This document shows, piece after piece, positions 9,328 through 30,474 of a stretch of DNA of 36,563 nt. Position 1 is the stretch's first letter; each line of letters starts with the position of its first letter. Source of the stretch: Candidatus Kerfeldbacteria bacterium (GTDB taxonomy: Bacteria; Patescibacteriota; Patescibacteriia; UBA9570); assembly GCA_016182495.1 (NCBI GenBank), contig JACPGK010000004.1, positions 1-36,563 of the forward strand, read 5' to 3'. Made by a program: the position numbers and the translations under genes. Under the pieces are notes generated by a model that saw nothing but the letters and a program-made list of their open reading frames with translations, made no database searches and had not been told where the DNA came from.

Positions 9328-10239
9328 TTATGGTGCGTAACAAAAAGTATTTATTTTCTGAGAAAAAATACTAAAAATATTATAAGATGCAATATAAGAA
9401 GAAGAAATGGCGTCTCTTGTAGCCAACTGACAATTAAAACCACTACCTTCATAGGCGATGGGGTCAGTGGATCCAGCCGGTTGCCCCAGTTTACAATTCC
9501 AGGCTGCCTCAACACCAGTATTCAATCTCCAATCACTGCCGGCTATTTTTTCTTCACAAAGATCTCCCATTGTTTTATATATAGCAGCCTCCGCTGCCGC
9601 ATACGTAGTACCCCATGTACCATAATCATAATTAGCCGGAATTGACGGTACTTGAGGTAATAGTTTCATACTGTAGTAAGAACATACGCAATCACGCGTG
9701 GCTGTTTCTTTGGTATCAGAACTGCCGATCATAAATTTTTTGTATTTTGCTTCAGTCATGCAATCTTGCACCCATCGACCGCAATCATCAAGCTGGCAGG
9801 ATAACGCGCTGGCTGGTGTAAGTGGATCAGGGTAACAACCACCATCACCGCTTTCGCAGCGATCACCACGGCAATATTCTCCATCAAAAAATCCTAAATG
9901 ACCACAGGCGATATCTGGGCAAGGGATATCTTTTTTATCTTCACCGATACAGATATTATCTTTAAAATTGGCCGCGCTGGTTTTGCCATCATCGAATTTA
10001 TTATTGGAACATTTCGGTAAGTTATAAATACTATCATCGTTCTGCTGAATATCAATTTTAGAAACATCCAAGGTAATATTCACTAGAGTCGGATTAACAA
10101 ACAACAAAATGGTGTACGATAACAAGGCAATAATCAAGCCGGCGAGCGCCGAAGTGATAATTTCTTTAGCGCTGGTAATTTTTTGTTCATTGCCGGCGGC
10201 CGTTACCCACTGCATACCGCCAAACATAATTAACACCAC
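9328..10239 (-). CDS. VirB2-like pilin segment with cysteine-rich extracellular domain; frame-broken
   Basis: The first ~45 residues are identical to those of the pilin-M15 protein (MVLIMFGGMQWVTAAGNE and the second helix). After NPTLVNITLD the protein diverges completely into a ~250-residue tail with about seventeen cysteines (for example CPDIACGH, YCRGDRCESGDGGCYP, DCVCSYY), no peptidase motifs, and C-terminal FCYAP. It appears to be a paralogous pilin carrying a different, disulfide-rich head domain. The GTG start at 10239 is artificial: the real N-terminus with signal peptide lies in another frame at 10230-10406. Confidence 0.75.
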   Translation of the reverse strand: MVLIMFGGMQWVTAAGNEQKITSAKEIITSALAGLIIALLSYTILLFVNPTLVNITLDVSKIDIQQNDDSIYNLPKCSNNKFDDGKTSAANFKDNICIGEDKKDIPCPDIACGHLGFFDGEYCRGDRCESGDGGCYPDPLTPASALSCQLDDCGRWVQDCMTEAKYKKFMIGSSDTKETATRDCVCSYYSMKLLPQVPSIPANYDYGTWGTTYAAAEAAIYKTMGDLCEEKIAGSDWRLNTGVEAAWNCKLGQPAGSTDPIAYEGSGFNCQLATRDAISSSYIASYNIFSIFSQKINTFCYAP

Positions 10240-11047: not shown

Positions 11048-12949
11048 TTATTTCATCTCTTCGGCAAACTCTTTCTTGGATTCCTCAATTTCTAACAACT
11101 GTTTAGGATCGGATGTAACAATTTGATCTTCTGTGTACGATGCTACCACTTTAATGGCGGCGTGTCGAGCACCGGCAAAAAAAATACCTTCACCAACATT
11201 GCCTTCTAGCAATAAATATTTCTCGCCATCGGTTAATAAAAATGTTTTTTGGATGTTATCAATGGCCGCCGGCGATTGTTTGAGTAAAATCTGCAAAGAA
11301 GAATTGGTCACAATGGCCCGGCCATAGGGTGATAACAAAAAGTCATTGACATCTTGGGTAATCGTAGTAACGCCTAAATAGTATTTACGACAACGCTTGA
11401 CTAGAGCAAAAATAAACTTGGCGGAATCTTCATTTTGCATTAACCACCAGGCTTCATCAATCACCAAAATACGTTTTTTTAATTGCGACCGTACTACGTT
11501 CCAAATGTAATTGACAATCATGTACACCCCAATGGGGCGTAATTCATCTTCTAAATCACGCACCGAAAACACCACTAACTGATTATTCAAATCGATATTA
11601 GTTAGGCTGGAAAATAATCCGGCAAAGGTGCCTTCGGTATATTTTTTTAAACGTAACACTAAATCTTTACTGCCTTCAAAGCCTTCTAAAATATCTTGAA
11701 AATCTTTCATCACCGGCGGTTCAATGGTGGATAAATCGGCCTCGGCGGTAATATCTTTTTTGGCGTAGGTTTCAATTAAGGCGCGATCAATAATAGAATC
11801 TTCCGCCGGGGTAATATTACCCAACATGATACGTAATAACCCTTTAATGGTAATCACCGCCGATCGAATGATATCAGCCGGACGATCGGCCCCACCCACG
11901 GCGCGCGGTAAATCGAACGGATTAATTTTGACTTCGGAGTTTAACGATATATTTAAAAATGTTCCGCCAACCGAATCGGATAAATATTTATATTCATTTT
12001 CCGGATCAATAATAATCACATCCGTACCCATCATTAAACTGCGCAACACTTCTAATTTAATAGTATAGCTTTTTCCGGCACCCGAAGTAGCGAACACTAC
12101 CGAATTGGCATTTTGCAATTTGAAACGATCGAATAGTATTAAACTGTTATTATGACGATTAATACCGTACAAAATACCGTTATCACTGGTGAGTTCAGCC
12201 GAAATAAACGGAAACGACGAAGCACAAGGGGACGAATTCATGTTGAAATAAATTTGCAACTCATCGTTGGCTAATGGCAGGGTAGAACTAAAACCTTGTT
12301 CCGCTTGGTAAAATACCCGTTTTGCCACCACTAATTTAGAACCAAACTCGGAATCTAACTTTTCCATTAAATCCTCTAACTGTTTTTCGGTATCGGCGTA
12401 CACACTCACGTACAAGGCGTATTGAAAAAATTTCTCGGTGCCTTGCGTTAAGCTATCGCGTAAACCTTCAATATCCTTCAAAGCGGTTTCTTTGATGGGG
12501 TCGCGCGGGGCGCCTTTTTCGGCATCAGAAATTAATTCGGCCTCAAGCGAACCAACTTTCTTCTTGAGCTGTTTTAAAATAATATCCGATCGCACTGGAT
12601 AAAAATACATGGCGATATCAAGCGATAAATTCATCATCACCAACGGCGCGAACCAACCAACCGCAATGTAGCGCGGATAGGTTACCACAAACATCGTTGA
12701 AACAAACCGACCACCTAAATCAATATGACGCGGCCGCACTCGTAAAGCCGCCGGCGCGATTAAATCGAGTACCGAGCGCACCCCTAATTCGTAGGCTTTG
12801 GCCGCTTCGAGCAATTCACGGGCCTGGTACTGCTCGGATTGTTTTTGTTGCTTAGCCAAGGTTAACTGTTCCTTGGTTCTGGGTTTCAAGGCGGCGGTCA
12901 CTGGTATGGTTTTGCCATCACGCTGGGCAGCGCGTTTAAAATCAATCAT
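11048..12949 (-). CDS. virB4: VirB4/TraC-type T4SS ATPase, C-terminal piece
   Basis: The 633-residue product contains the ATPase core. Walker A is TSGAGKS (288-294), preceded by the VirB4-like VVFA strand. Then come TDVIIIDPENEYKYL and the Walker B RILVIDEAWWLMQN, then GVTTITQDVNDFL and SSLQILLKQSP. The N-terminal ~120 residues include RPRHIDLGGRFVSTMFVVTYPRYIAVGWF, the usual start of the VirB4 central region in CPR. VirB4 energises pilus assembly and substrate transfer at the inner face of the membrane. It overlaps the N-terminal piece by four bases (ATGA), so the two are probably translationally coupled and act as one enzyme. Confidence 0.93.
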   Translation of the reverse strand: MIDFKRAAQRDGKTIPVTAALKPRTKEQLTLAKQQKQSEQYQARELLEAAKAYELGVRSVLDLIAPAALRVRPRHIDLGGRFVSTMFVVTYPRYIAVGWFAPLVMMNLSLDIAMYFYPVRSDIILKQLKKKVGSLEAELISDAEKGAPRDPIKETALKDIEGLRDSLTQGTEKFFQYALYVSVYADTEKQLEDLMEKLDSEFGSKLVVAKRVFYQAEQGFSSTLPLANDELQIYFNMNSSPCASSFPFISAELTSDNGILYGINRHNNSLILFDRFKLQNANSVVFATSGAGKSYTIKLEVLRSLMMGTDVIIIDPENEYKYLSDSVGGTFLNISLNSEVKINPFDLPRAVGGADRPADIIRSAVITIKGLLRIMLGNITPAEDSIIDRALIETYAKKDITAEADLSTIEPPVMKDFQDILEGFEGSKDLVLRLKKYTEGTFAGLFSSLTNIDLNNQLVVFSVRDLEDELRPIGVYMIVNYIWNVVRSQLKKRILVIDEAWWLMQNEDSAKFIFALVKRCRKYYLGVTTITQDVNDFLLSPYGRAIVTNSSLQILLKQSPAAIDNIQKTFLLTDGEKYLLLEGNVGEGIFFAGARHAAIKVVASYTEDQIVTSDPKQLLEIEESKKEFAEEMK

Positions 12950-13638
12950 GATGGTAAGGTACTACTATCAACCCGTAACTTAGCTAAATCTGGCAACTGT
13001 TTATTACTGCCACGAGTGGGATTATACATTTGATAGTACAGTTCAATTAAACTTTGGGTGTCGAGCTGTGATACCTTTAAGCCAATCGAGCTTAATCCTC
13101 CCGCGGCAATACTCATCCGACGATCTAACTCTTTTTTATATTTCGCAAACTTGGCATCAGCTAAGCGAATAATGCGGCTTGGAAACACCACTTCTTGGAT
13201 GCGGGTGAAAAAATTTTTACGCTTTTTTGAAAAGGGCGAGTACGGTACCACTACATAAAACTTTTTTTCCATAATTTCGGCTAAGGTGACCAACTCTTCA
13301 ATATATTGACGATATTCTTGCGTTTGCACTTTGAGCAGTTCGTTAGGTTGATTTTTGGCAAGCGTATTCAAATCTTCTAAATATGGCCTGATATCCAGCT
13401 TACGGGATTGAATGACAATTTGTAATTCAAAATCAATCGAGTTTAAAAATCCCACGTAACCTTGAATAATAGCGTGCTGTTCATCTTCACTTTTCAAGGC
13501 AAAATTAATCGAGGATACATCTAACACTGCGCGCAAGGTACCATCTTTTAAAATAACGGTATCCTGCTTCACCTCCGCAATATACACACTATGCTGGGTA
13601 GATGGTTTTTTAGATTTAGCTGGGGCTGTTTTTGGCAT
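12946..13638 (-). CDS. VirB4/TraC N-terminal domain protein (split VirB4)
   Basis: The 230-residue product starts with a Lys/Pro-rich tail and then shows the TraC/VirB4 N-terminal pattern: VYIAEVKQDTVILKDGTLRAVLDV, NFALKSEDEQHAIIQGYVGFLNS, FELQIVIQSRKLDI, and KKFYVVVPYSPF. It has no ATP-binding motif. In CPR genomes this domain is usually encoded separately, just upstream of the ATPase piece, as here. It would contact the membrane complex (PrgI/VirB3-like, VirB6-like). It starts 1 nt after the prgI stop. Confidence 0.85.
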   Translation of the reverse strand: MPKTAPAKSKKPSTQHSVYIAEVKQDTVILKDGTLRAVLDVSSINFALKSEDEQHAIIQGYVGFLNSIDFELQIVIQSRKLDIRPYLEDLNTLAKNQPNELLKVQTQEYRQYIEELVTLAEIMEKKFYVVVPYSPFSKKRKNFFTRIQEVVFPSRIIRLADAKFAKYKKELDRRMSIAAGGLSSIGLKVSQLDTQSLIELYYQMYNPTRGSNKQLPDLAKLRVDSSTLPS

Positions 13639-13639
13639 G

Positions 13640-14086
13640 TTATGTTTGATCGGCCTGTGCGGGGCTGTATTTACCGGCGGTATCCATAATTAAAGATAAT
13701 TCAGCCAGCTGCGACTGCGATACTTCTGGTTTGGGTGTAAACTGATCGTTATCTTTATGATCTTTCTTGCGATCTTTACGCGACAGTTTGGTGATTACTT
13801 GATGCACCGGATCGCGCCGCCAAATACTTAAGTGCGGCCGCTTTAAGGTTTGAATTAAACTCAAGGCAAACAAATGAAACGGCTGACTATTTACTTTGGC
13901 AAAGGCAAAGGTGCCGCCTAAAGTTAACGTGAATACTCCCAAAACAGCAAAAATAACAAAACTAAAAATTTCATAGAGCAAAAAAATCAACCCAGCGGTC
14001 ACCAATAAAATTAAAAATTGCCGCACCGAAATTGGACCAATCACTTTTGATTCAACTTCAATAAATTGCGGGACAACAAATTGCAT
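13640..14086 (-). CDS. PrgI-family protein (VirB3-like T4SS membrane component)
   Basis: The N-terminus MQFVVPQFIEVESKVIGPIS is the PrgI signature, followed by RQFLILLVTAGLIFLLYEIF and a second helix, FVIFAVLGVFTLTLGGTFAFA. Then comes the conserved short motif PFHLFALSLIQTLKRPHLSIW. The tail (about 95-148) is polar and charged, probably cytoplasmic. PrgI proteins occupy the VirB3 position and bind VirB4, whose gene follows immediately. Confidence 0.88.
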   Translation of the reverse strand: MQFVVPQFIEVESKVIGPISVRQFLILLVTAGLIFLLYEIFSFVIFAVLGVFTLTLGGTFAFAKVNSQPFHLFALSLIQTLKRPHLSIWRRDPVHQVITKLSRKDRKKDHKDNDQFTPKPEVSQSQLAELSLIMDTAGKYSPAQADQT

Positions 14087-14092
14087 GGTGCT

Positions 14093-15832
14093 TTAAAAAC
14101 GTAAAGTTCTATTTAAGTCAGCCATGGCATTAAATTCGGCTAAAGTTAACGTAGGCGCGCCTTGATGTTGTAGCTCGGCGATAACATCGGCCACCGACTG
14201 GCCAGTAGCAATGGAGCGGTTACCAATATCAAGGTACAACAAATTGAGGGGTGATTCTCGAAAGGCCTTAATGCCATCGGCTTGCTGAATGATTGATTCT
14301 TCGCCCAGTAATTCAATTTTATCACGCAGTTTGGTAGCAGCCGCGGCTGGATCAGGCGATAACCGACGAAACTCAATAACGTCCATAGCGCGCAGTTCAT
14401 CAATGGGGCCCATAATCATGGTTTGATGCAGCTTAACATCATCGACTAGAGCTTTTTTAACCATGCGAGAACGGCGCAATTTTGGTAAAAAAGATCGTTT
14501 TGGTATGGCCGGTGGTGTGGCTACATTGGCTGGTAACGTTACTTCAGCGGCTGGTTGTTTGGTGAGCACAGCTGGGATAGCCGGTGGCGTTACTACCGGG
14601 GCAACTGCCGCCTTATGGCGAATCGGTCCACCTTTAATGGCAGCCACGATGGCCTCGATTTGGTTGAGGGGATACTGCAGTTCCACCAGATATTGGCGAA
14701 ACTCCATCACATCCCGTAACCCGCGTAACACCGATATCAACAGATCGGTAAATTTTTTCTCCAATTCTGGGGTAGCAAAAGTAAGCTGTAATTGCTGTTT
14801 TAGATTACTAGCGTGTTGATTGTAATTAACGATTGTGGTTTGTAATGGCACCGATTGCACGGCCAGTTGAGTAACAGTTTGAGCATCTTGATCGGTAAAA
14901 TGGTCAGGGCCGGCGGTATCGGCCAAATCTGGCCCGGGCAAATTGGTTAACGGCCCCTTTGGTACCACCGCCGCCACCGGGCCACGCCCCATTAAGTGCT
15001 GAATATCTTCCTCACTAAAACTGCCGGTTTCGAGTAATAATTGCTTATAATTTTTCACAGATTCATGAAATTCGTTAATTTTCTTTTGATCGTATAATTC
15101 TAACTGTCCATATTTTATCACACCTTGGTCGGTGGCGTCTTCATAGGGTATTGTTTCTTCTACGCCCGATTCTCTCCAGGAAGAAATTTTCAGTTGTTCA
15201 TACACTTTAAATAGTATGGTCAATCGATGCTGTTCAGCGCTTGATAATTTCAGGGCATTATCATTTTTACGAAAAAAATTATTTTGGCGTAATACTGAAA
15301 ACTTCGGCCCCATGTACTCAATGTATTCGGCTAACCAATGACGCGTGGTTGGGCGAGTTTCACGTAAACCGCGAAAAAATTTAGCGCTGGTAATCACTTC
15401 ATCGTTATTCGATAACGCCTCAACCAATTGTTTTTTAAAGGCATCTCGTTCTTCAAAAATACGAATGTCGACTAATTTTTCACGCAGCCGTTCGGTAATA
15501 ATAAATTCAAACACTGTGAGATCACCTTCGTTATCCAGATCATAATGTTCCTGCAACGTCATCAGCTCGGTGAGGTGCTGTTGAAATAAATCCAACACCA
15601 TCGGATTTTCCAGCACCGGTAAAGCCACCCAGCGGCTTTCAATTAAACGCCGATCAATTTCTTTGGCCTGTTCGGGAAAATCAACCCGAAATGATGGCTG
15701 GTTGGCAAACCAGGCTTGAAACCACCGATCAGTATCAAGAATGTTAGCTCGGTCGGCAAATACAATATTATTCTGCAAAAACTGCAAACTATCTTGATAA
15801 ACTTCAGGCTTGGTTAAATCGATATTCACCAT
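14093..15832 (-). CDS. Unknown 579-residue cytoplasmic helical protein of the T4SS locus
   Basis: No recognised family. There is no signal peptide or membrane segment. An N-terminal helical region of ~290 residues is rich in acidic and aromatic residues. A Pro/Ala linker (about 395-445, AVAPVVTPPAIPAV type) follows, then a basic patch (PKLRRSRMVKK) and a C-terminal ~110-residue helical domain. Sitting between virB6-like and prgI genes with 6-nt gaps on each side, it is probably a cytoplasmic partner of the membrane complex. That is inference from position only. Confidence 0.75.
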   Translation of the reverse strand: MVNIDLTKPEVYQDSLQFLQNNIVFADRANILDTDRWFQAWFANQPSFRVDFPEQAKEIDRRLIESRWVALPVLENPMVLDLFQQHLTELMTLQEHYDLDNEGDLTVFEFIITERLREKLVDIRIFEERDAFKKQLVEALSNNDEVITSAKFFRGLRETRPTTRHWLAEYIEYMGPKFSVLRQNNFFRKNDNALKLSSAEQHRLTILFKVYEQLKISSWRESGVEETIPYEDATDQGVIKYGQLELYDQKKINEFHESVKNYKQLLLETGSFSEEDIQHLMGRGPVAAVVPKGPLTNLPGPDLADTAGPDHFTDQDAQTVTQLAVQSVPLQTTIVNYNQHASNLKQQLQLTFATPELEKKFTDLLISVLRGLRDVMEFRQYLVELQYPLNQIEAIVAAIKGGPIRHKAAVAPVVTPPAIPAVLTKQPAAEVTLPANVATPPAIPKRSFLPKLRRSRMVKKALVDDVKLHQTMIMGPIDELRAMDVIEFRRLSPDPAAAATKLRDKIELLGEESIIQQADGIKAFRESPLNLLYLDIGNRSIATGQSVADVIAELQHQGAPTLTLAEFNAMADLNRTLRF

Positions 15833-18702: not shown

Positions 18703-21700
18703 TTAATCAGTGCTAACCAGGATATTAAATGACGGTGTATCGTAGGTGCCGCAATCGTTACCAATATTAGTGGTGCTATCGCCACTAAAGCGATGATCGC
18801 CGGCTCCTTGAGCGCCGGAACAAAAATTCCAGTGATCCAGCAAGGTAATCTGCGGTTGAAACTCACAATCGGTATCCACATTACCATCAATATCGGTATC
18901 CACATTACCATCAATATCATAGCCGGCGTATTCTGGGCCACAGTTGTAGGCATGGGTAAAAATATGGGTGGTGGGAGCAGCTTCCCAGGTAAAGCGGTTA
19001 GTGTTGCCATCGCCCCAATCAATGTAAATGAAATCCAGAGCGGTTTGTTCAGCATTCACCGTTGACGTGAATTGAAATTCAAGGGTACGGCCGGCTTCAA
19101 CATCGTAACTGCCATCAGCAAAATCACTGGCAGCGGTATGGCCATCCACGGCAATCACACCACTGGCAATGGCTGGTAAAATACCACAGTATTCATCGGC
19201 TTCATCACTGGGCCGATCAGTCAAAATGTTACCATCGGCATCGGTACAAATTGACATATCAGCAAAAATGTTACCATCGCCATCATCCCAATAATCGGGT
19301 ACACCGTTATTGGTATACACTGTTCCAGTCAGGCTGGTAAAATCCAGTTTGTAGAAATCGCCAGCAATATCAGCAAACACATGTTTTAAGCGTTCACGAG
19401 CATTATCTACTACTCCGGTAATTTGATCATCTAAGGTATCGTACGTGCTGGCCAATGTTACCAGGCCATCGGCTAATCCTTCCGCGCTAACTTCGGCATC
19501 GCCAATGCCCATGCACACGCCGTTATCACCGCAATCACCATCATCATCACATTCATTACCATTACTACCGCTTTCACTGAAACTATTCACACAAAAGCGT
19601 TGATCACATTTACCAATGCAGCTTAATGGCCGCCCGGAGTGTGGCGCCGAACTGCTGGCAACGATTGGCTGGTAGTTGAAAGTCCCATCAATATAGAGAT
19701 TAATAAAGTTTTCAGGGTCAACAGATAAATACGGATCCCACACCAATGGAGTATCATCTTGGGTAGTGATTGAACCGTACGGTGAATTATCCGAGCCAAA
19801 TTGAATGGGGTTATCACTTTGACTATTGATGGCATACCCATCACTGCCATTAGCCGCCCGGCTGGCCCAAGCTACATTATCACCATTGGGAGTGACATCT
19901 TGAGAAATCACCGCGCAGCTTTCGCGCACTTGCAAATCAAGAAACATGTGTTGGGAGTAAGTCAATTCCACACCTCGATCGGTATCCGGCGTGCCATCGG
20001 CTCCAACATACAATAAATAATATACCGCTTGAATATAGCCCTGCTCATTCACATCCAGCCACAAGCTAAACAAATTATTTCCACCATCCGCATCTGCCCC
20101 GCGTTTGGCTTGGATATCTTGTAACGAATCCCACCCTGCCCAGCTGCCTAAATCATCTTCATCAAATACATAGGTAGCGTAATCTTCGCTGGTGATTTGA
20201 TTTTCTACGATATTGTTTAACACACTACCAGGTACATGGTTCCAAGGATTGCGTGAACCATTGTTATCGGTGGTGGTCCAGCTAGCCACTTGATTGCCAT
20301 CACTCGAATCAATCCCCATCACCTGTTTAACGGTTTGTTCAACACAGGGTGAGGCAAACATATCGGGTTTACTTTCGGCGGTAACTAATTGATTAAAGCG
20401 GTATAAATATTTATCTTCATCATCGGTATCGGCCTGTTCACAATGATACAGTAATTCACTTTCTTCAGGGCCGTTATCAAGATCAAAATTACTCCAGGCC
20501 CAGTTATACACAATATCCATGTTATCGTAACTACCGGCTTGATCTTCATAGTAAGTGGGTAAAAATTCACTGTCGTACAAACCCCAATTACGGCAACCAA
20601 AGCCTGGTACTTCAACGTCAAAGCCAGCGCAATCATTCCATGGTTCATAATCACCGGTAGCATCGTTACGACTAATTGAACCTTCGAAAAAATCAGTTAG
20701 CACCCAATTACCGTAGGCGCTGCAATCATAACTACCGCAATTAGTGGGATCATCCGGATAAGCCGGCGTGCGATCATACGGCGATACTGAAGCATTCTCA
20801 AGATCAGCTCCATAACCCAGCTGGCCCCAATATTTATATTCATCTGTGACTCCTCCGGTTTCACCGGCGGAACCGGTATTGTAAATAATCGATTCAATTT
20901 CGCTGATATGAATGTTGCGTAAAATTTCATTGGCCGGGATACGGGCAATCATGGCATGATCATAATCACGTTCGGTATTGACATCAAATACATCTGGCAC
21001 TTGCCAGCGTAAGGCACGCACGCGGTAGCCGTTATCAATTTCATTATAATCGCCAACATTATCTTCATCCAAACCAGTTTCAGGATGATCCTTTTCGGCG
21101 CTGAACGCGGCTACAGTGACAGCTGCTTCAGTATCAAAGTTATCAGTATTGGCAATACCATCATTATGCGTGGGGAAAGTGTAATTAGCCCCTTGGATAC
21201 ATTCACCGCTATCGCACTGATCGTTATTGGTACAAATTTTACCAGTGCCAAAGGTGATTGGATCGTTCGTATCCCAAGTGGCTTCATCACAAAAGCCAGG
21301 TTCTTGTAAACCTTTCGATACCAAACAATGGTACACGTTCGATCGACCACCGCTACCGTTATAGCCCGATGGCACTCGCTCGACAATAGATTCTTCACCA
21401 GCCAAAATATCTTGTGGCCACCAACTGATACACCGTTGATTATTAGTGGGATCTTGTTCTAAACAATAGCCTTTCCAACCTTTAAATACGCCGCCAGTAG
21501 CCTGGGTATAATCACATTGCAAGGCATCGCTTTCGGGGTAGGCTCGGCACGACCGAGTAATAGGATCAAGTTCTTTGCTCACTTCTAACACCGGCATTAA
21601 CGATACATTATCAATTTGAATGTGTGAGTTATCAGAGGCTAAAAATTCCAAATCAGTCGTTACGTCGACAATTTCGCTGTACGCCGCCTCGTTATCTTCT

Positions 21701-24700
21701 TGTAATTGCGTAGTGGTGATGGGGCCAAAGGTGTAGGTGCGCATGATTGAATCCATCTGGAAAATTTCCACATCGCTTAAAATACTGCCATACAACCGAT
21801 CAACAATGGTAGTATCGCCGGCCCAATCTGAACTGGTGGCATACGGAGCAGTGTTATCATCGGGGTCGGTATAATCATACACATCGCCACCACTGGCATC
21901 GGCCAGGCTGGCATAGTTGGCACTACACGGGCTACCAGTAGCAGCATCGTCGGCATTATCATTGGCACAAGCCTCGCGACCGTTAGAAATAACATACACC
22001 GGCACCGAGGCCAGTTGAGCAGAGCTGGTAGCTTGAGCTGAACCGATATCGTTGCCAATTTCATCACCGGTATCGGTAACAATAATAATAAACCGTTGGG
22101 CATCGTTACGGTAGCTTAATGATTCACCGGTGGGCAAGGTATTGTTGGCTATGTTGACTACGGCATTAAATGGATCAACTAAGGCGGAAGTAGCTACCAT
22201 GGCATCAACGGCTTCAAAGAAAGTACCGCTAGTACAATTATTGCTGGCATCACGGGCATCACACACATCAGCGGTAAAATCTAAATCCAAATCATTAGCA
22301 TCATCATCCGCTGCCCCATCACCATCTAAATCAAACCGGTCCATATCCACTAGCGCAAAGCGAGCATCCACGCCCGAGGCATCAAGCAAATCGGCTAAAT
22401 CAACTATGGCCTGTTGCACAGCATTAATTTCTCCAGACATTGAACTAGAGGTATCAATGGCGAACACAATATCAGCTGCCCCGTAACCGCTCACAAAACA
22501 ATCTTTTCGTTCAACACTGATATCCGTATCATCCGGATCAACCATACCATTATGATTTAAACAAATTGTTAAAGTAGATGGTGATACCGCATCTAATCCA
22601 GCATAATTACCATCGTACCGGCCCTCGAACGACAAAGCGTAGCTGCCGCCAGGAATAATATTATTACCATTATTACTTAAATCATATTCTACACCGCTGG
22701 TGAAGGAAGTATTGGGTTCATTTTGCGGTTCTACTTCCAATACATTATTAACGTCAATTTGTGGACAATCATCGGTACAATCTGGTACGCGTGGATCATA
22801 CTGACTCACCTGAACAGTAGCTGTGCCAACAGTTTGCCAACCGCGAGCGGTGTAACTGACATCGTTGAGTGGTGGGCCACCAAATGGCCAATCAAAAAAT
22901 GCAGGCGTGTTTGGACAATAGTAGGTGGGGTTGGGTTGATCGTCATCAGTGCTAAAAGCCGTGGCCACATCGTCACCGGCGATAATGGTAACCGGATCAT
23001 TGGTAATGTCGGTATCTTGCAACCGGCTTTCAATTCGGCTGGTAAAACAGTTACCCGCTTCGGGGCTAGCCGTAACAATATCAACTTGCGTGGCATTGGT
23101 AATACACGGCTGGGTAGTATCGGCATCGCTACCGGCGCAATACAGGGTTTCAAAATCGTTATGTTCAATCAAATCTTGCCCGCTGCTAGCGCCGCTCTCG
23201 CCAATTTCATACATCCAACCATACGGATAATAGCCGTTCACAGCAAATGGATCAGCACAGGTATAGGTTTCCGGATTACAATCATCATTGGTGCTGCAAC
23301 TGATACCGCTGCCAACACACAGCCCACCGGTACAGGTATCGGTACAATCACTATCGGCATCACATAATTGTCCAGCATACGGCCCAGCCTGACACGACCG
23401 GGTGCCTGGCCAAGTAACGCCAGCTTTGGCATAGCCAGTTAGATTAGTCATATCTAACAAGGCATCGGTATCACCTTTGGCTGAAGTGTATTGAATATCT
23501 AACGATGGACTCAATTGATCGTAGGCTGGTTTGGGTACCCAGGAGGAACAGTTACCATTGGCATCGAGTTCATTACAAATATTAATATTATAACACTGGC
23601 TGGATTGATTACCTTGATCATCAATCACCGTAGCAGCGGTTTCGCAAGCTAACCATTCACTGCACACCCGATCACGGTTCACTTTTAACACGGTATTAGT
23701 ATCACAGGCATCGGCCTGGTTACGGCAGGTATCAGAATTTGGAGTTAACAAACAGGTGGTGCAATCTTGAGCATCTTGAGCATAACTTTGGGTATCGTAA
23801 GTAATATCACGGAAAGCCACACAACCACCATCGGATAAAATATCATTCAAATCAACATCTTGCGTATCACACGAATTGGTACTATCAATTGATTCTTTCT
23901 CCGATGTGCCATCAACCGTATAATCGAGGTAATAATACTTATCATTCTGTTTTAAGCTGACGGCATCGAAATACATGGTGGTAGCAGAATGATTCGCCAC
24001 AAAGGCTCGGGCATACACCGCGTTGCCAGGCCATTCAATGGTTGAACCTAAACCAATATTACCCTGCCAGCGATACCATTTACTCATGCCATCGGTATCC
24101 ACTTCGAAAGCGGTATCAGAAATAGTAGCGTGATTGGCGACAATATAGGTGACGCTATCATCGACAGTGATACCATCCGCCACGTGATCTACATCAGCCG
24201 TATCATTAGTAAAAAATTGTAAACCGATACTAAACTCAATTGGTGTATCGGTGGTGCTATCTTCATCATCAAAGCCAATTTGTGGCATTTTCACCATGGC
24301 CTGCAAAGTGTAAAGCTGGTCTCGTTCAAATTCATGGAACTTGATTGGGCTGACAGCACAGTTGGTTAAGGCCAGAGCCTTGGCACCATCAGCGGCTGCT
24401 ACAGCGGTAGTTTCAATCGCTTTGATAATATCGTTGGCACAACTGCTATCAAAGTCAGTGGTACCATCCAAATCTAAATCGACCGTACTATAATTAACGT
24501 CATCAGCAATGCCATCGCCATCGTTATCAACATTGATGCCCGAACCATTTTGTGGTACTGCCCAATAATCCGGAAAACCATCAGGCGTAGCATCCGAGGC
24601 ATAGTACACGTTATCGAGGTCGCGAGCATCATCTTCAAAGCTCCAATTGTTAATCACTTCGGCAATATTAGGACTATACGGATCAACGTATTCTGAACAA

Positions 24701-27700
24701 CCCGATTGCTCACCGGGACACTGCCCTACCCAGCCAAAATCTGGAGTGGTTAAAGTAACTCCATCATCAACATACTGCAGATAATTATGAATGCCGCCAT
24801 TGTACACATCGACATCATCAGCGGGGTTGGATAAACAGCGTGGGGCAGGATCACTACTATCCCAATCGGTTGGATAACAATCGGCATCAGAATTACATAA
24901 TTTATCCACTTTGCTGCTAGCGACAGTAAAATCATCATTCAAGTGCACACTATTACTACTACACACGCCGCCCAAAGGCTGTGATGGATCGGCATACTCA
25001 TACTGCACCGGGCAATCGGGCGAGGCAGCGGCACTATCTTTTTTAAACCAACCTTGCACCGTGTTACCAGCTTCGTTGGTGTATTCTTTTAATTCACAAA
25101 TTTTATCGCCGGGGTCTTTAAAGTACACTGTGCCATCGTATTCCGAATCATATTGGCGACACTGCAGTTGCGGTTGTTCACATAAAATTGAAACGTAATC
25201 ATCGGGTCGATCCAACAGATAAGTTGATTGGTATTCTAAAATTTCTCCAGTCCGTTCATCAACATCGGGTAAGCCAACTTCGCTACAGCCATACACTGTT
25301 TGAGAACATTGATTATCGTCATCGTACACCAAAGTAACCGGCTGATCGTATGGCACAATCACATCATCTTCGTTGTACTCATTATTCAGGTTATAGCCTT
25401 CGGTAAACGGATTAGTGGAATTGGCGGTATCAATCATTGCTTCACAGCCGACAGCGGCGGTATCACATAACCGCTGGAACGATTTTAAATAGTGGGTGAC
25501 AGCAGACCGATCACTGTACTCACGACAACCTTCAAAACCAAGACAAGTGTTGGCCGTATCCTGAATTAAATATTGGCTATTCGATTGCGTCAGCCTAATG
25601 GTATCAATAAAGGCTTCGGCAGCGGCACTGCCACCGGTATATTGCAGAGTAAACGTTTCATCACCTGCGGCAACGCTTTCAGCTGTATCCACAATCACCG
25701 GTCCAACTTGATAGTACTGCCAACCACCTTCACCATTGGGATCAAGAGTGACTGACACTGGCGTACTACTGGCTCCGCTGGTAGTAAAGTAGTAGTCATT
25801 CGCTAGGCCATCAAGGTTAAAGGTGGCGCTGCCGGAATTCCAGCTGGCCGCTGCTCCGGTACAATCGGCAATGGTAGTATAGGTTGCATCAGAACAACTG
25901 CCACCATCCACTTTGGCCCAAAAGGTAAGAATATACGAACTACCAGCATTTAATAATCCAACTGTTTCGGTATCAACCGTGGTAAATAGATTATATGAGA
26001 TAGCCGCATTAGTGGCATTGGCTGCATCAGCGTCGTGCAGTTGCAAGGAATAATCGCCCTGGCTTAAGGCTTCGTTACTGGTAGAGGTAGCTCCGGCCCA
26101 AGCTTCGTACGAGTTGCTGGCAAAAGTTTCATTAATCACCTCTTCAGTTGCTCCGGCATCGGTACCACGATATTCACGACATCCCACTTCGGCAGCGGCA
26201 CAACTATTACTGTCATTCGGTATGGCATAGTATACGCGGGTATCTTGCGAATTACGCAGTGGAATACAGGCATCGGATACTACAATCACTTCAGATTCAT
26301 AGCGATAGTAAATGTTGCCACTATCATCCAAAAATTGACGACAATCGGCGTTGACACCATATTCTTCATCATCAGTACTGACATCACTGTTATTGGCAAT
26401 GCCATCGTTATCTAAATCACCGCTGGGTCCACAATCATGAACGGTGGTGCCACTTTCGCCATCTTGGCAATCGGCATTAAACTCTTCACTCTGTAAATCA
26501 AGCTGGGTGCAGGGAGCGCCAACATAAGGAACATCATTAGCCACTTTGAACAAATAATCATTAATCCGTACGCCACCGCTATCATCACTGCCTTCGAATG
26601 TATGGAAGGTGGCAATGGCAGTATCGTTGGTTTTAACGCACTGCTTCAAATCGGTGTAATATTCTAAACCTTCACCACCTTGGGCTGCGGCATCAAGGTT
26701 GGTGTATTCTTCACAACCCACCGCCGAAATACCGCACTGATCAGCCGATGATGGCACAATGGATAATTGTAATTGACAGGTGGCTCCTGAAACGCAATCA
26801 GTATCGGCAAAACAATGAGTGACACTATCATTACTGCAATACCCACCGTAGCGCTGCATCACTCCTGGTCGTTCTGTAACATTATCCAACCAAGGCTCAT
26901 CCGTGGTGATAGGAGTGGTGTTATCTAATCCTATCTCTTGGTAAAAACCGCACCCTACAAAATAATCATCAGGCTGATCAAGGACTGGGTTACCATTACA
27001 TTGGTTACAGGACGGGTTGCTATAATCGTAATCACCGTTAGCGTCGACACAAGCGGCTGACCCGGCATTGGTAATTAAACCGGGGATACCTTCTTCTTCA
27101 TCCCGGCCAGCTTCAACATACAATTCGCAACCAACATCTGCGGGCTCGCAACGTAAGGTATCACCATTAAGATAGGTAGCGTTATTGCTTAAATAATTTG
27201 GATAACTGTTCGTAAATGAATCGGCTTCAACCAGAGTAGCGGCTTCGATATCAATAGCGCAGTTGGCGTGTTCGTTGATTGATACGGTAATGGCGCTACC
27301 TAAATCAACCGCCAAATCAGACTGGTTCGGGAAGGTGTGAGTAACATAATAATCACGGAAACTATCCGAATAACTGGTAATGGTAGCATCACTGGCATCG
27401 GTAAACGACGTGACCGTTTCGATATCATAGCCATTGGCATCGCCAATACTAAATGATAGGTCGCAGGTAGTGGTGCTGGCATCAAGGGATAAGGCCGAAT
27501 AGGCAAACGTAAAGGTACGATTTGATACATTTTGACCAGTATCTACTGTTATGCTTAAAGCACCATCACCGCTGCCATCCGCCACCAAGTGAGCATAATT
27601 GGTACTGTAATTAGTGGTCACAGTGCTGGTAAATGAGGTATCTGTACCGCTGGTGAATATATCAACCACGGCGTCATCTTGAATCCAACCAATGCACTGA

Positions 27701-30474
27701 CCTTGAGTTTCTTCGGTATCAGCGGTATCGCCATCGCCGTTAATATCTTCGGTACAAGCCGCGCTACTATCGCAACCACTGCCATCGTGTGAACAAAAAG
27801 CGACAAAATCTTGAACGGTATCATCAAGATTATTCTGGCTTTGATCATAGTATTCAAAAAAGGTATTCGGAATCAAATTGGTATCAGATTTCAGCCGAAT
27901 ATATTGTTGACAACCGGCATCGCCACTATCGCAACTTTGGGTATTATCATCAAAATATAATGTATCATTTGATATGGCCGGCTCTTCTGTTACGGTACCA
28001 ATCACGCAAGTATTGCCTCCGGTACTGGTACAGGCGTATAAGCCGGCGGCTATCGCGCAACTATCCTGCAAGGTGCAGCTGCCATTAACACTGCCATCAG
28101 CATCGATATCGCCATCACTGGTATCGATGTCACCATCAACACAATCATTCCCCAAACTATTACTGCAACTAGTTTGACCATCAAGTACCGTACAAGTATC
28201 ACCACAATTCAAATAGCCAGTGGTTACTTCACAGGCTGGTGCATTGGAATAGGTAGAATAATCCTCGGTGCAACTGGCGCCATTATCTAAGGTACAGGTT
28301 AAGCTAGTAGTGCCGCCACCCTGTATATCAACCGTCACCGGACAACTGTTATCACCGCCAGCGGCAGCACACGTATTTGATAGTGTGCAGGTACACTGTT
28401 CGGTGGTGGGATCATAGCTTGGGCTACCCGCTCCACAGGCACTGCTTAATTCACATAACGACTCGGTGCCATTACCATTAGCTACCTCACACTGCCAATA
28501 GTCATATACACTATCAGTGTTACCATCAAAGCCTAAATCAGAACCGGCTGCCACCTGACAAGTACGGTCGAGCGTGCAACCGCATACTTCATTAGCATCG
28601 TAGGTTAAGCCATAATCAGTAGCCGTATCTTCGGTACAGGAAACAAATGTTTCGGTTGGACTGGCACAATCAAAACTACCGCTAGCGTTTTGACTTAAAC
28701 AATACCATTGACAGCCCGGATCGGTAGCACAATCATTATAATTGAGTGAGCTCTTCAAATACGAAACCGTATCGCCAGCTTCATTGCTAAAGGTTTGGCA
28801 AGAACTGTATTCCGACTGACACGATTCTCCAGCGAAACGATAAATCCGTCGCTCATCGGTACAATAGCCGTAGGCGGTGCATACTCCTTCTTGAACTTCC
28901 TCAATACAGCCACGACTATCCGCACAATAATTTAAACGACTAAATTGAACTGCTTGCTGTTCAGCCGCGGTACCAGTTTCAAAAGTATTGATGCTGGAAA
29001 AATCAGGACCCGGCGCCTCGCGTTCACAAAAATTCTGCGGTGCTTTTAATACCCACTGCGGATCAACTAACTTACAAAACGGCGAGTAGGTAGTAGCGTT
29101 GCCATCAGGATCATTCAGTAATAAAGTACAGGCACCGGCACTATCACCACCGCAGGCATTGTAGCAATCAACCAAATTTTGCAAGGTGGGAATATTACTG
29201 GCATACTTGGCATTAATATATTCAGCAGCCAATTGCCAGCCCACCGGGGCAATGCGATATTTTTTTAACAGTAGAATACCTTTGTAGGTAATGGCGGCAT
29301 CATCAATAATAGAGGCGGAATCGCTGTTATTATCAGCGAAACGGTATTGCTTACTATTATCATTCAAATAATTGATAAATTCTTGCACCGACCAATGTTC
29401 AGTGATGGCGATTTGCATGGCTGCCCCAATGGCACAGTTATTTACAGTTGGACCAAAGCCATCATCACCGGTGAGACAACTGCCTAATTCAGCTAAAATA
29501 TCAAATGAACCAGTGGCGGCGAAGGTGGGTTGTTTCAGTTCGGCAAAGGTGGCTTCGGCTGCTCCGCGGCCAGTGGCGGCACCGGAACTGACTCCCGAAA
29601 TAATGCCAGCCAAACCGCTACCTTTTGATAAGTTGGCAATACCATCTTGCAGTCGTTTCATTAATTTACTCACTAGAGTGCTAGCAAAAATATTAATGGC
29701 ATCGGTAAATGGCTTACCCACAGTTCTAAGAGTTTCTTTGGTAGAATCGCTGGCATTCTTAAATCCGCCTTCTATCAATGAGCCGGGTGTGAGAATAGTT
29801 TTAGAAACTAATTCAGTTTTACTATCAAAGTCACCTTTCGAACGTTTAATTTCGGCATCTTTTTCGGCGGCATCAGTCGCTGAAATAGTAACATCTTGCG
29901 CTTCTAAAAATACGCCGGTTTGATTAGCCGACGGATCGAATTGCAATTCAAAAAATTTATTAAAATCGGCATCGGCATAGGCCTCTTTCCAATTACTCCC
30001 TAACTCGGTTAAGGTACAAGCTGGCTTGTAAGGCGTTTTGGCATTACCAGCATCTAACCCAAAGGTTAAGTTCACCTTAAAGGTTTCACCAGGATCACAT
30101 AACCCCGCCACATCTAACCCCGCACCGCTGGCTAACCCTTCAATGGCACCACCGGCAGCGGCATCCCCCAAAGATTCCATATACTCGCCTGGTGGTTTAC
30201 TAAATACTAAAGCATCTTGGCCCTCGCCTCCGGAAGCAATAAACACGGCTGCATCATGGGCAAGTTTACCCAAAAACGCATTGAGAGCATTACGGATCAT
30301 GGCTCCGAGCATATCTAAAATAACCTCTTTAACAGTGCGTTGAGTATTAAGAACAGCGGCATCAACATCAACTACCGGAATAGCAACGGCAGCTGCTGGC
30401 ATTGGTTTTACCAACATAGTCATCATCACTAGCACAAGGCACAGGCTGGTAAAAATACGGCGCAGCAGTATCAT
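18703..30474 (-). CDS. Giant secreted cysteine-rich protein (3923 residues) with VWA and PKD domains
   Basis: The signal peptide is MILLRRIFTSLCLVLVMMTM with cleavage near AAA (about 29). Residues ~30-480 form a conserved-looking head (FGLDAGNAKTPYKPACTLTE). Residues ~480-840 are dense in cysteine, including three CTLxxxCxxAAG-like units. Residues ~845-1925 hold nine C-x5/6-GC-x2-aromatic-type modules spaced by jelly-roll-like stretches (VINNWSFEDD, FIDTIRL). Many DxDGDG-type calcium sites occur throughout. A VWA domain (about 2665-2890) has an intact MIDAS start D2674-T-S2676-S-S2678. A PKD domain (about 3775-3850, IDWGDGN) lies near the C-terminus, with no sortase motif or anchor. It overlaps the upstream gene by ATGA. 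It is probably a surface adhesin or stalk of the T4SS-like machine; this is inferred. Confidence 0.85.
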   Translation of the reverse strand: MILLRRIFTSLCLVLVMMTMLVKPMPAAAVAIPVVDVDAAVLNTQRTVKEVILDMLGAMIRNALNAFLGKLAHDAAVFIASGGEGQDALVFSKPPGEYMESLGDAAAGGAIEGLASGAGLDVAGLCDPGETFKVNLTFGLDAGNAKTPYKPACTLTELGSNWKEAYADADFNKFFELQFDPSANQTGVFLEAQDVTISATDAAEKDAEIKRSKGDFDSKTELVSKTILTPGSLIEGGFKNASDSTKETLRTVGKPFTDAINIFASTLVSKLMKRLQDGIANLSKGSGLAGIISGVSSGAATGRGAAEATFAELKQPTFAATGSFDILAELGSCLTGDDGFGPTVNNCAIGAAMQIAITEHWSVQEFINYLNDNSKQYRFADNNSDSASIIDDAAITYKGILLLKKYRIAPVGWQLAAEYINAKYASNIPTLQNLVDCYNACGGDSAGACTLLLNDPDGNATTYSPFCKLVDPQWVLKAPQNFCEREAPGPDFSSINTFETGTAAEQQAVQFSRLNYCADSRGCIEEVQEGVCTAYGYCTDERRIYRFAGESCQSEYSSCQTFSNEAGDTVSYLKSSLNYNDCATDPGCQWYCLSQNASGSFDCASPTETFVSCTEDTATDYGLTYDANEVCGCTLDRTCQVAAGSDLGFDGNTDSVYDYWQCEVANGNGTESLCELSSACGAGSPSYDPTTEQCTCTLSNTCAAAGGDNSCPVTVDIQGGGTTSLTCTLDNGASCTEDYSTYSNAPACEVTTGYLNCGDTCTVLDGQTSCSNSLGNDCVDGDIDTSDGDIDADGSVNGSCTLQDSCAIAAGLYACTSTGGNTCVIGTVTEEPAISNDTLYFDDNTQSCDSGDAGCQQYIRLKSDTNLIPNTFFEYYDQSQNNLDDTVQDFVAFCSHDGSGCDSSAACTEDINGDGDTADTEETQGQCIGWIQDDAVVDIFTSGTDTSFTSTVTTNYSTNYAHLVADGSGDGALSITVDTGQNVSNRTFTFAYSALSLDASTTTCDLSFSIGDANGYDIETVTSFTDASDATITSYSDSFRDYYVTHTFPNQSDLAVDLGSAITVSINEHANCAIDIEAATLVEADSFTNSYPNYLSNNATYLNGDTLRCEPADVGCELYVEAGRDEEEGIPGLITNAGSAACVDANGDYDYSNPSCNQCNGNPVLDQPDDYFVGCGFYQEIGLDNTTPITTDEPWLDNVTERPGVMQRYGGYCSNDSVTHCFADTDCVSGATCQLQLSIVPSSADQCGISAVGCEEYTNLDAAAQGGEGLEYYTDLKQCVKTNDTAIATFHTFEGSDDSGGVRINDYLFKVANDVPYVGAPCTQLDLQSEEFNADCQDGESGTTVHDCGPSGDLDNDGIANNSDVSTDDEEYGVNADCRQFLDDSGNIYYRYESEVIVVSDACIPLRNSQDTRVYYAIPNDSNSCAAAEVGCREYRGTDAGATEEVINETFASNSYEAWAGATSTSNEALSQGDYSLQLHDADAANATNAAISYNLFTTVDTETVGLLNAGSSYILTFWAKVDGGSCSDATYTTIADCTGAAASWNSGSATFNLDGLANDYYFTTSGASSTPVSVTLDPNGEGGWQYYQVGPVIVDTAESVAAGDETFTLQYTGGSAAAEAFIDTIRLTQSNSQYLIQDTANTCLGFEGCREYSDRSAVTHYLKSFQRLCDTAAVGCEAMIDTANSTNPFTEGYNLNNEYNEDDVIVPYDQPVTLVYDDDNQCSQTVYGCSEVGLPDVDERTGEILEYQSTYLLDRPDDYVSILCEQPQLQCRQYDSEYDGTVYFKDPGDKICELKEYTNEAGNTVQGWFKKDSAAASPDCPVQYEYADPSQPLGGVCSSNSVHLNDDFTVASSKVDKLCNSDADCYPTDWDSSDPAPRCLSNPADDVDVYNGGIHNYLQYVDDGVTLTTPDFGWVGQCPGEQSGCSEYVDPYSPNIAEVINNWSFEDDARDLDNVYYASDATPDGFPDYWAVPQNGSGINVDNDGDGIADDVNYSTVDLDLDGTTDFDSSCANDIIKAIETTAVAAADGAKALALTNCAVSPIKFHEFERDQLYTLQAMVKMPQIGFDDEDSTTDTPIEFSIGLQFFTNDTADVDHVADGITVDDSVTYIVANHATISDTAFEVDTDGMSKWYRWQGNIGLGSTIEWPGNAVYARAFVANHSATTMYFDAVSLKQNDKYYYLDYTVDGTSEKESIDSTNSCDTQDVDLNDILSDGGCVAFRDITYDTQSYAQDAQDCTTCLLTPNSDTCRNQADACDTNTVLKVNRDRVCSEWLACETAATVIDDQGNQSSQCYNINICNELDANGNCSSWVPKPAYDQLSPSLDIQYTSAKGDTDALLDMTNLTGYAKAGVTWPGTRSCQAGPYAGQLCDADSDCTDTCTGGLCVGSGISCSTNDDCNPETYTCADPFAVNGYYPYGWMYEIGESGASSGQDLIEHNDFETLYCAGSDADTTQPCITNATQVDIVTASPEAGNCFTSRIESRLQDTDITNDPVTIIAGDDVATAFSTDDDQPNPTYYCPNTPAFFDWPFGGPPLNDVSYTARGWQTVGTATVQVSQYDPRVPDCTDDCPQIDVNNVLEVEPQNEPNTSFTSGVEYDLSNNGNNIIPGGSYALSFEGRYDGNYAGLDAVSPSTLTICLNHNGMVDPDDTDISVERKDCFVSGYGAADIVFAIDTSSSMSGEINAVQQAIVDLADLLDASGVDARFALVDMDRFDLDGDGAADDDANDLDLDFTADVCDARDASNNCTSGTFFEAVDAMVATSALVDPFNAVVNIANNTLPTGESLSYRNDAQRFIIIVTDTGDEIGNDIGSAQATSSAQLASVPVYVISNGREACANDNADDAATGSPCSANYASLADASGGDVYDYTDPDDNTAPYATSSDWAGDTTIVDRLYGSILSDVEIFQMDSIMRTYTFGPITTTQLQEDNEAAYSEIVDVTTDLEFLASDNSHIQIDNVSLMPVLEVSKELDPITRSCRAYPESDALQCDYTQATGGVFKGWKGYCLEQDPTNNQRCISWWPQDILAGEESIVERVPSGYNGSGGRSNVYHCLVSKGLQEPGFCDEATWDTNDPITFGTGKICTNNDQCDSGECIQGANYTFPTHNDGIANTDNFDTEAAVTVAAFSAEKDHPETGLDEDNVGDYNEIDNGYRVRALRWQVPDVFDVNTERDYDHAMIARIPANEILRNIHISEIESIIYNTGSAGETGGVTDEYKYWGQLGYGADLENASVSPYDRTPAYPDDPTNCGSYDCSAYGNWVLTDFFEGSISRNDATGDYEPWNDCAGFDVEVPGFGCRNWGLYDSEFLPTYYEDQAGSYDNMDIVYNWAWSNFDLDNGPEESELLYHCEQADTDDEDKYLYRFNQLVTAESKPDMFASPCVEQTVKQVMGIDSSDGNQVASWTTTDNNGSRNPWNHVPGSVLNNIVENQITSEDYATYVFDEDDLGSWAGWDSLQDIQAKRGADADGGNNLFSLWLDVNEQGYIQAVYYLLYVGADGTPDTDRGVELTYSQHMFLDLQVRESCAVISQDVTPNGDNVAWASRAANGSDGYAINSQSDNPIQFGSDNSPYGSITTQDDTPLVWDPYLSVDPENFINLYIDGTFNYQPIVASSSAPHSGRPLSCIGKCDQRFCVNSFSESGSNGNECDDDGDCGDNGVCMGIGDAEVSAEGLADGLVTLASTYDTLDDQITGVVDNARERLKHVFADIAGDFYKLDFTSLTGTVYTNNGVPDYWDDGDGNIFADMSICTDADGNILTDRPSDEADEYCGILPAIASGVIAVDGHTAASDFADGSYDVEAGRTLEFQFTSTVNAEQTALDFIYIDWGDGNTNRFTWEAAPTTHIFTHAYNCGPEYAGYDIDGNVDTDIDGNVDTDCEFQPQITLLDHWNFCSGAQGAGDHRFSGDSTTNIGNDCGTYDTPSFNILVSTD
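18868..18915. repeat. 24-bp tandem repeat (two units) in the giant gene
   Basis: Two perfect 24-bp units encode an eight-residue repeat, DIDGNVDT, followed by a partial third. Each unit adds one DxDGNxD calcium-binding-like loop near the PKD domain. A likely site of slippage-driven length variation. Confidence 0.9.

Follow-up and report, generated by a model that had tools for sequence, protein, structure and literature searches.

What does a VWA domain do inside a giant protein encoded among the type IV secretion genes of a patescibacterium? The question is raised by a 36,563-nucleotide stretch of DNA (the window) from a Candidatus Kerfeldbacteria bacterium, a tiny and probably host-dependent organism. 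The role of the type IV secretion system in Saccharibacteria is called completely unknown in a 2024 review, which also mentions that this group has essential surface proteins predicted to be adhesins (PMC11665869). The original prediction, made from the DNA sequence, had placed a VWA domain with an intact metal site at positions 21780-22500, within a secretion-locus giant of CPR type, and had proposed it as the part that recognizes a host or a surface.

The gene order in the window is 278-aa membrane protein, giant, VirB6-like protein, 579-aa protein, PrgI, VirB4 N-terminal part and VirB4 (Table 1). The giant is found beside VirB4, PrgI and VirB6-like genes, in a secretion locus as had been predicted; the VirB6/TrbL-like protein itself gave no convincing family match. 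Among 20 fetched loci of relatives a homologue of the VirB6-like gene was present in 18; it was missing in L036, whose sequence stops inside the giant, and was not found in L039 despite about 6 kb covered past the giant. Homologues of the 278-aa gene and of the 579-aa gene were each present in 14/20 loci, of PrgI in 7/20, and of the VirB4 N-terminal part in 6/20, the fetched stretches often stopping short of the last genes. According to the accessible text of a 2025 survey, patescibacterial VirB4 is related to that of monoderm conjugation systems and shares ancestry with the MPF-FATA class, recG is commonly part of ABY1 type IV secretion loci, and no PrgB-type adhesin was detected in Patescibacteria; the main text of the survey does not contain the word "giant" (PMC12102498). 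Synteny suggests that the giant may be a part of the type IV machine.

Table 1. Features of the window, with positions counted from its first nucleotide and residues numbered in the giant.
Feature	Positions	Strand	Basis or remark
recG ORF	3155-5197		name by eye
VirB4 ATPase	11048..12949	(-)	P-loop_TraG, E 5.4e-29
VirB4 N-terminal part	12946..13638	(-)	weak TraC match, E 0.008
PrgI/VirB3-like	13640..14086	(-)	25.9 bits, just under cut-off 27
579-aa protein	14093..15832	(-)	conserved beside VirB6-like gene
VirB6/TrbL-like polytopic protein, 952 aa	15839..18697	(-)	name from TM pattern and position
Giant secreted protein, 3,923 aa	18703..30474	(-)	single ORF
Cys/Trp module, RSCRAYP...GWKGYCLEQDP...CISWWPQD	21391..21555	(-)	widespread in ABY1
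Second half of split jelly roll, residues 2899-2972	21559..21780	(-)	profile match
Inserted VWA, profile A3, residues 2662-2908	21751..22491	(-)	Pfam core 21982-22473
Distal MIDAS Asp, D2801 (VTDTGDE)	22072..22074	(-)	
SALVD, residues 2763-2767, expected loop-2 Thr place	22174..22188	(-)	alignment
MIDAS motif, D2674-T-S-S-S2678	22441..22455	(-)	
First half of split CBM-like jelly roll, residues 2573-2661	22492..22758	(-)	profile match
Conserved N-terminal domain of giant, residues 46-655	28510..30339	(-)	
Signal-peptide-like segment, about residues 1-30	30385..30474	(-)	hydrophobic from residue 1; end by eye
278-aa neighbour, one TM-like segment	30471..31307	(-)	weak thrombospondin-3-like match

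The giant is acidic (16% D+E, 4% K+R) and contains 149 cysteines, and its sole TM-like segment is the N-terminal signal. Its conserved N-terminal domain had no hit in Pfam for the window, and the one match among PDB sequences (E 1.9) was insignificant. Between residues 850 and 2220 ten copies of a GCxEY-like motif occur at uneven spacing, some of them separated by what by eye resemble jelly rolls; the motif seems to mark a Cys module repeated along the stalk of the giant. The window also contains two T4SS pilin fusions (6071-7105 and 9328-10239, minus strand) that open with about 46 identical residues and then diverge, one with a VanX/VanY-like D,D-peptidase part and the other with a Cys-rich tail. 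Elsewhere in the same genome, contig C13 has short T4SS_pilin ORFs densely packed on both strands (21081-25611, 10 matches), and contig C16 (33647) has an ORF of 2,801 aa that includes a pilin-like domain.

The VWA domain (residues 2664-2895) was found where it had been predicted, and Pfam and the modeled fold agree on it. With Pfam VWA (PF00092, curated cut-off 23.8 bits) the whole giant stayed below the cut-off (20.3 bits, E 7e-4) and a 452-aa piece exceeded it (27.0 bits, E 6.3e-6). When the genome was scanned in six frames, the domain scored 27.2 bits and was the sole match over the cut-off, the second, at 14 bits, lying under it. The same family matched eight of nine VWA carriers, the window included (E up to 1). 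A profile of the nine carriers matched the window at E 1.5e-71 vs 0.01 for the best of 200 shuffles, a figure biased toward the window since the profile includes it. No match was returned by phmmer when the VWA region was searched against the PDB.

An AlphaFold model of the region, built from nine sequences and of modest confidence (mean pLDDT 62.6; 63-89 in 20 of the 24 ten-residue blocks of model residues 91-330, and 45-59 in the other four), shows strands and helices in alternation, as in a VWA with its alpha/beta Rossmann-like fold. The best 50 of 351 Foldseek matches (E up to 0.001) were all integrin entries, by our reading beta chains, with E 1.2e-9 to 3.6e-8. Among the VIA-align matches listed, the predicted model reached Z 16.7-18.0 over 167-196 residues, including chain B of an alpha4beta7 integrin entry (Z 18.0, rmsd 3.1, 193 aligned) and the bacterial VWA 4fx5 (Z 17.8, rmsd 2.6, 178 aligned); integrin beta, 4fx5, alpha I domains and TFIIH subunits tie at Z 17-18. 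The sequence profile ranks collagen VI, mussel PTMP1 and integrin alpha-L/X ahead of integrin beta. As far as the model goes the VWA fold is firm; the closest subfamily is not, because the tie in Z and the order of the sequence profile disagree with the Foldseek list.

The VWA is set into another domain. A profile built from ten VWA-less relatives, comprising a jelly roll and the Cys/Trp module that follows it, matched the window twice: profile positions 1-63 on residues 2573-2645 (iE 1.6e-5), and positions 71-193 on residues 2899-3027, Cys/Trp module included (iE 3.1e-38). The VWA fills the gap between the two matches, the last ten residues of its profile span overlapping the second jelly-roll half. 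Both halves flank the VWA in 8/9 carriers, the window among them, with iE values for the first half from 2.9e-11 to 0.01, weakest in genome G001; in the ninth carrier, L038, the contig begins inside, so that the first half is cut off. The profile matches point to an insertion of the VWA between two strands of the jelly roll, the "split domain" arrangement familiar from adhesin heads.

A model of the VWA-less jelly roll, made from four sequences and of modest confidence (mean pLDDT 62.9), had CBM16 as its best Foldseek match (E 8.3e-4). VIA gave Z 8.3 to the CBM4 structure 1gu3 (rmsd 3.0, 108 aligned) and, above it, Z 8.7 to a phage baseplate protein, and CBM_4_9 matched one of nine carriers (E 0.045). 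From the model the companion domain is best called a CBM-like jelly roll, with no closer label. Relatives carry other domains nearby: L040 has a Cys-rich insert at the same spot as the VWA, and in L044 and L048 domains that look PA14-like directly follow the jelly roll (all by eye). This region of the stalk therefore appears to accept domains. In loci of Magasanikbacteria (L069, L070, L072), Kuenenbacteria (L066) and Uhrbacteria (L068) the halves of the Cys/Trp module are themselves separated by long insertions.

A single-sequence genome scan gave no relative, and a second scan with alignment A2 gave 21 loci, including Kerfeld-, Kuenen-, Magasanik- and Uhrbacteria, "Parcubacteria" and "Microgenomatus" loci and unnamed Patescibacteria, which we take to belong to the class ABY1 on the basis of the locus names and their taxonomy. 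Residues 2000-3923 of the giant had a match in 100 of 144 genomes, counting the genome of the window. Of 380 class genomes, 260 have the 55-residue Cys/Trp module; a phylum-wide draw of 379 genomes contained 26 with it, and all of these 26 belong to ABY1. Judged from these sequence matches, the giant is an ABY1-class protein carried by most ABY1 genomes, in line with the patescibacterial origin that had been predicted. One copy of the module (G090:C8:3786-3926) lies in a 26,141-aa open frame of a 0.9-Mb genome. Another genome has two modules on one contig with the same scores and frame lengths in opposite orientation (G043:C2:651338 and 689047), which would fit an inverted duplication of the locus or an assembly error.

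The VWA is far more restricted. Profile A3 matched 26/380 class genomes, nine of them strongly (E 3.4e-61 or better), all in the family or order of the window, and 17 weakly (E 8.9e-11 or worse); within the genomes searched the inserted VWA is confined to the order, a restriction that rests on one profile and 380 genomes and that a diverged VWA could escape. As 251 of the 260 genomes with the Cys/Trp module gave no strong VWA match, the giant seems to work without the domain. In the fetched loci of relatives (L032-L051) a VWA was seen in all eight from the order, in L033 via a second ORF and in the seven others by profile. The 12 loci from elsewhere in the class had no VWA beyond two weak partial profile matches away from the jelly roll (L045, iE 0.032; L043, iE 0.076), which were taken as chance. 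None of the 13 named loci L060-L072 had a VWA match. Three of these, L061 (unreadable upstream in that frame), L062 and L064, are labelled Kerfeldbacteria, so that the NCBI label does not map onto the order. In one genome of the order, G008, neither the Cys/Trp module nor a VWA was found. Since the relatives examined outside the order are without a VWA, recognition by this domain would not be a general feature of the giant. In L033 (genome G001) an in-frame TAA, either a sequencing error or the mark of a split gene, divides the giant into ORFs of 2,579 and 1,497 aa.

The 17 genomes with weak matches were considered as carriers of the same head and rejected. Eleven of the weak matches lie in open frames of 2,599-3,620 aa (L093-L103) that resemble the secretion-locus giants in the VWA at most, where the best blastp match (E 1.25e-5) falls, and the remaining six in frames of 325-1,002 aa; when the 12 fetched regions, the eleven and one of the six (L104), were searched again, 10/12 matched the VWA profile (E up to 1e-3). 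The VWA is mostly near the C-terminus of the 2.6-3.6 kaa ORFs, and 10 of these 11 have a hydrophobic N-terminus that looks pilin-like by eye, L093 being without a start.

Identity to the window was compared for the VWA and for residues 900-3920 of the giant in five relatives: 54/51% in G003, 49/50% in G002, 37/35% in G006, 32/34% in G007 and 28/33% in G004. The values are about equal, so the VWA is not decaying faster than the giant, and there is no sign of the rapid change that might be expected of a host-facing part. This bears on the main rival to an adhesive function, a serious one, in which the giant would be a protein of envelope or machine building, such as a surface coat or an extracellular collar of the type IV secretion system, and the VWA would make a metal-dependent contact within the giant or with a neighbour protein instead of another cell. 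Besides the even conservation of the VWA, the steady place of the giant between the 278-aa and VirB6-like genes and its very high cysteine content agree with such a role, and in other systems assembly is among the tasks of VWA domains. On the other hand, the VWA occurs in one order only, whereas loci throughout the class have the neighbour genes, and it is set as a projecting split-domain head. We regard the assembly role as somewhat unlikely, bearing in mind that the odds given to the favoured and rival readings are not mutually exclusive.

Recognition might instead reside in the jelly roll together with the class-wide Cys/Trp module, the VWA merely modulating it. The likeness of the jelly roll to sugar-binding modules and the presence of the Cys/Trp module in 260/380 class genomes are in favour of this. 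However, no jelly roll could be recognised by eye directly ahead of the Cys/Trp module in L066, L068-L070 and L072 (in L068 one is present further upstream), and the inserted VWA may block a sugar cleft. A binding part of this kind is doubtful, less probable than the assembly role.

The MIDAS motif D2674-T-S-S-S2678 lies within ADIVFAIDTSSS and is followed by RFIIIVTDTGDE (with D2801) and VPVYVISN, all inside 21780-22500, so that the DxSxS motif and the later strands of the original prediction are in place. Loss of the MIDAS residues from most homologues, which would have refuted the original prediction, was not observed among the VWA carriers: D2674 is invariant (9/9), DxSxS is strictly kept in 7/9, the exceptions being DTSST and DNTTN, and the distal Asp is present in 8/9. 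The description of the site as intact holds for DxSxS and the distal Asp and fails at loop 2, where by sequence alignment alone the Thr column falls on Leu2765 of the window, with Asp2767 two residues on; the same alignment has S or T at this position in 5/9 carriers. In integrin beta I-like domains an acidic residue takes the place of the loop-2 Thr, a part that Asp2767 might play here. The predicted MIDAS would hence have four of the five classical ligands (D, S, S and the distal D). Carrier G005/L038 has DNTTN, and N in place of the distal Asp, and because both elements are lost there the metal site is, to judge from the sequence, dispensable in this carrier. That the VWA is a degenerate, metal-free spacer, the remnant of an old insertion, is very unlikely, as Leu2765 and the loss in G005/L038, which fit this idea, are outweighed by the conservation of D2674, DxSxS and the distal Asp despite 24-51% VWA identity to the window.

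Precedents for such a head exist in other bacteria. In Bd0875 of Bdellovibrio a MIDAS fold is reported to be inserted in a small beta-rich domain; a D66A variant did not rescue the defect in prey invasion, which in the deletion mutant is partial, with about 10% empty bdelloplasts (PMC11003981). The giant has DxSxS in common with the adhesins Bd0875 and Bd1483, which are secreted by a cell-contacting bacterium, and has the insertion of a MIDAS fold in a beta-rich domain in common with Bd0875, described as a small lipobox lipoprotein with a cap and with residues named up to 378 (PMC11003981). Unlike Bd0875, the giant has 3,923 aa, lies in a secretion locus and is without a lipobox motif: the simple pattern [LVI][ASTVI][GAS]C is absent from its first 45 residues, where the sole Cys, C12, is part of TSLC. 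NCBIfam NF052240 (Bdellovibrio MIDAS adhesin), to which Bd0875 is assumed to belong from the family name, matched 3/9 carriers (best 6.4e-5) and left the window unmatched at E up to 1.

In the adhesin AhLap ligand-binding domains, a VWA among them, are described as budding from split domains, and the ligand of its VWA was not identified (PMC12077191). Like the giant, AhLap and other RTX fibrillar adhesins are of giant size with a VWA budding from a companion split domain; they are type I secreted and have RTX repeats and Ig-like extenders (PMC12077191). The giant differs from them in its Cys-rich modules, its CBM-like companion and a single GGxGxD match. By analogy, the split-domain layout and the precedents of Bd0875 and AhLap make host or surface recognition by the VWA plausible.

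In integrin beta the I-like domain is inserted in the hybrid domain. The headpiece resembles the giant in that a beta sandwich takes up a VWA; the resemblance is confined to layout, with whole-model TM values of 0.31-0.37. Membership in integrin beta was rejected on sequence, PF00362 matching 1/9 carriers (E 0.042) and not the window. The gliding lipoprotein CglD (NF033765) matched 4/9 carriers (best 1.2e-9), the window not being among the listed matches, and its architecture differs from that of the giant. PrgB can be likened to the giant in that both are encoded in type IV secretion loci, a comparison made by description. By description, too, its architecture is different and has no VWA head. 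PrgB is reported as a surface adhesin in a monoderm conjugation locus (PMC10588982).

Within the phylum, Absconditicoccaceae are reported to have surface proteins of very large size whose adhesion-type domains include integrin domains (PMC13059738), and Patescibacterium danicum to have very large surface proteins, among them FhaB giants (PMC11809585). Large adhesins as such are therefore not new in the phylum (PMC13059738). These proteins resemble the present one in being giant, surface-directed and equipped with adhesion-type domains; they are not described in a secretion locus in the accessible text, and the comparison is one by description (PMC13059738, PMC11809585). On the same basis the FhaB giants were rejected as the same protein (PMC11809585). 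No description of the giant was found in the accessible open-licence literature.

The reading we favour, at a probability of about 0.5, makes the VWA an adhesive head that takes hold of a protein on a partner cell or surface, the giant itself being in the service of the type IV secretion machine. Its identification by Pfam and fold, the insertion, the conserved DxSxS and distal Asp, the lack of faster decay, the VirB6-like neighbour, the signal segment as sole TM-like segment, the precedents of Bd0875 and AhLap described above and the failure of the 2025 survey to detect a PrgB-type adhesin (PMC12102498) all argue for an adhesive head. Against it stand the Leu at the loop-2 Thr position, the lost metal residues of G005/L038, the many class genomes with the giant's module and no strong VWA match, the absence of rapid change, and L039 with no VirB6-like neighbour found; binding might also lie with the jelly roll that the class shares. 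In the proposed course of events the ancestor of a single ABY1 order, with several members labelled Kerfeldbacteria, would have gained a VWA with a MIDAS by insertion into a loop of the CBM-like jelly roll of a giant beside type IV secretion genes. As the split companion, the jelly roll would hold the domain clear of the long Cys-rich stalk and its metal face would point outward. D2674, S2676, S2678 and D2801 would hold a divalent cation whose coordination is completed by an acidic residue of a partner or surface protein, and tension applied to the VWA at both ends could adjust its affinity, as happens in integrins. The giant would then make contact on behalf of the secretion machine, in the role of the PrgB-type adhesins of monoderm conjugation. 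Surface exposure, metal binding, the ligand, the mechanics and the physical link to the machine are what we infer in this scheme.

A bolder version, in which the giant is the missing contact adhesin with exchangeable heads at one spot of the stalk (a VWA in one order, a Cys-rich insert or PA14-like-looking domains in others) and the VWA head is independently evolved, integrin-like and force-tuned, is speculative and rather unlikely, ranking between the assembly role and the jelly-roll binding part.

A VWA/MIDAS adhesin head in a split domain is of a known kind, and what appears new is its placement on the giant of an ABY1 type IV locus. The sequence comparisons likewise suggest as new the insertion in the jelly roll, the giant as an ABY1-class protein, its synteny and the limitation of the VWA to one order. 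The VWA of the giant is a good candidate for grabbing partner cells. A class-wide giant with a recognisable predicted metal-site head in one order offers a small expressible protein for attachment tests, with one obvious point change in the head available for them, and it bears on how patescibacteria hold their partners and on the purpose of their type IV secretion genes.
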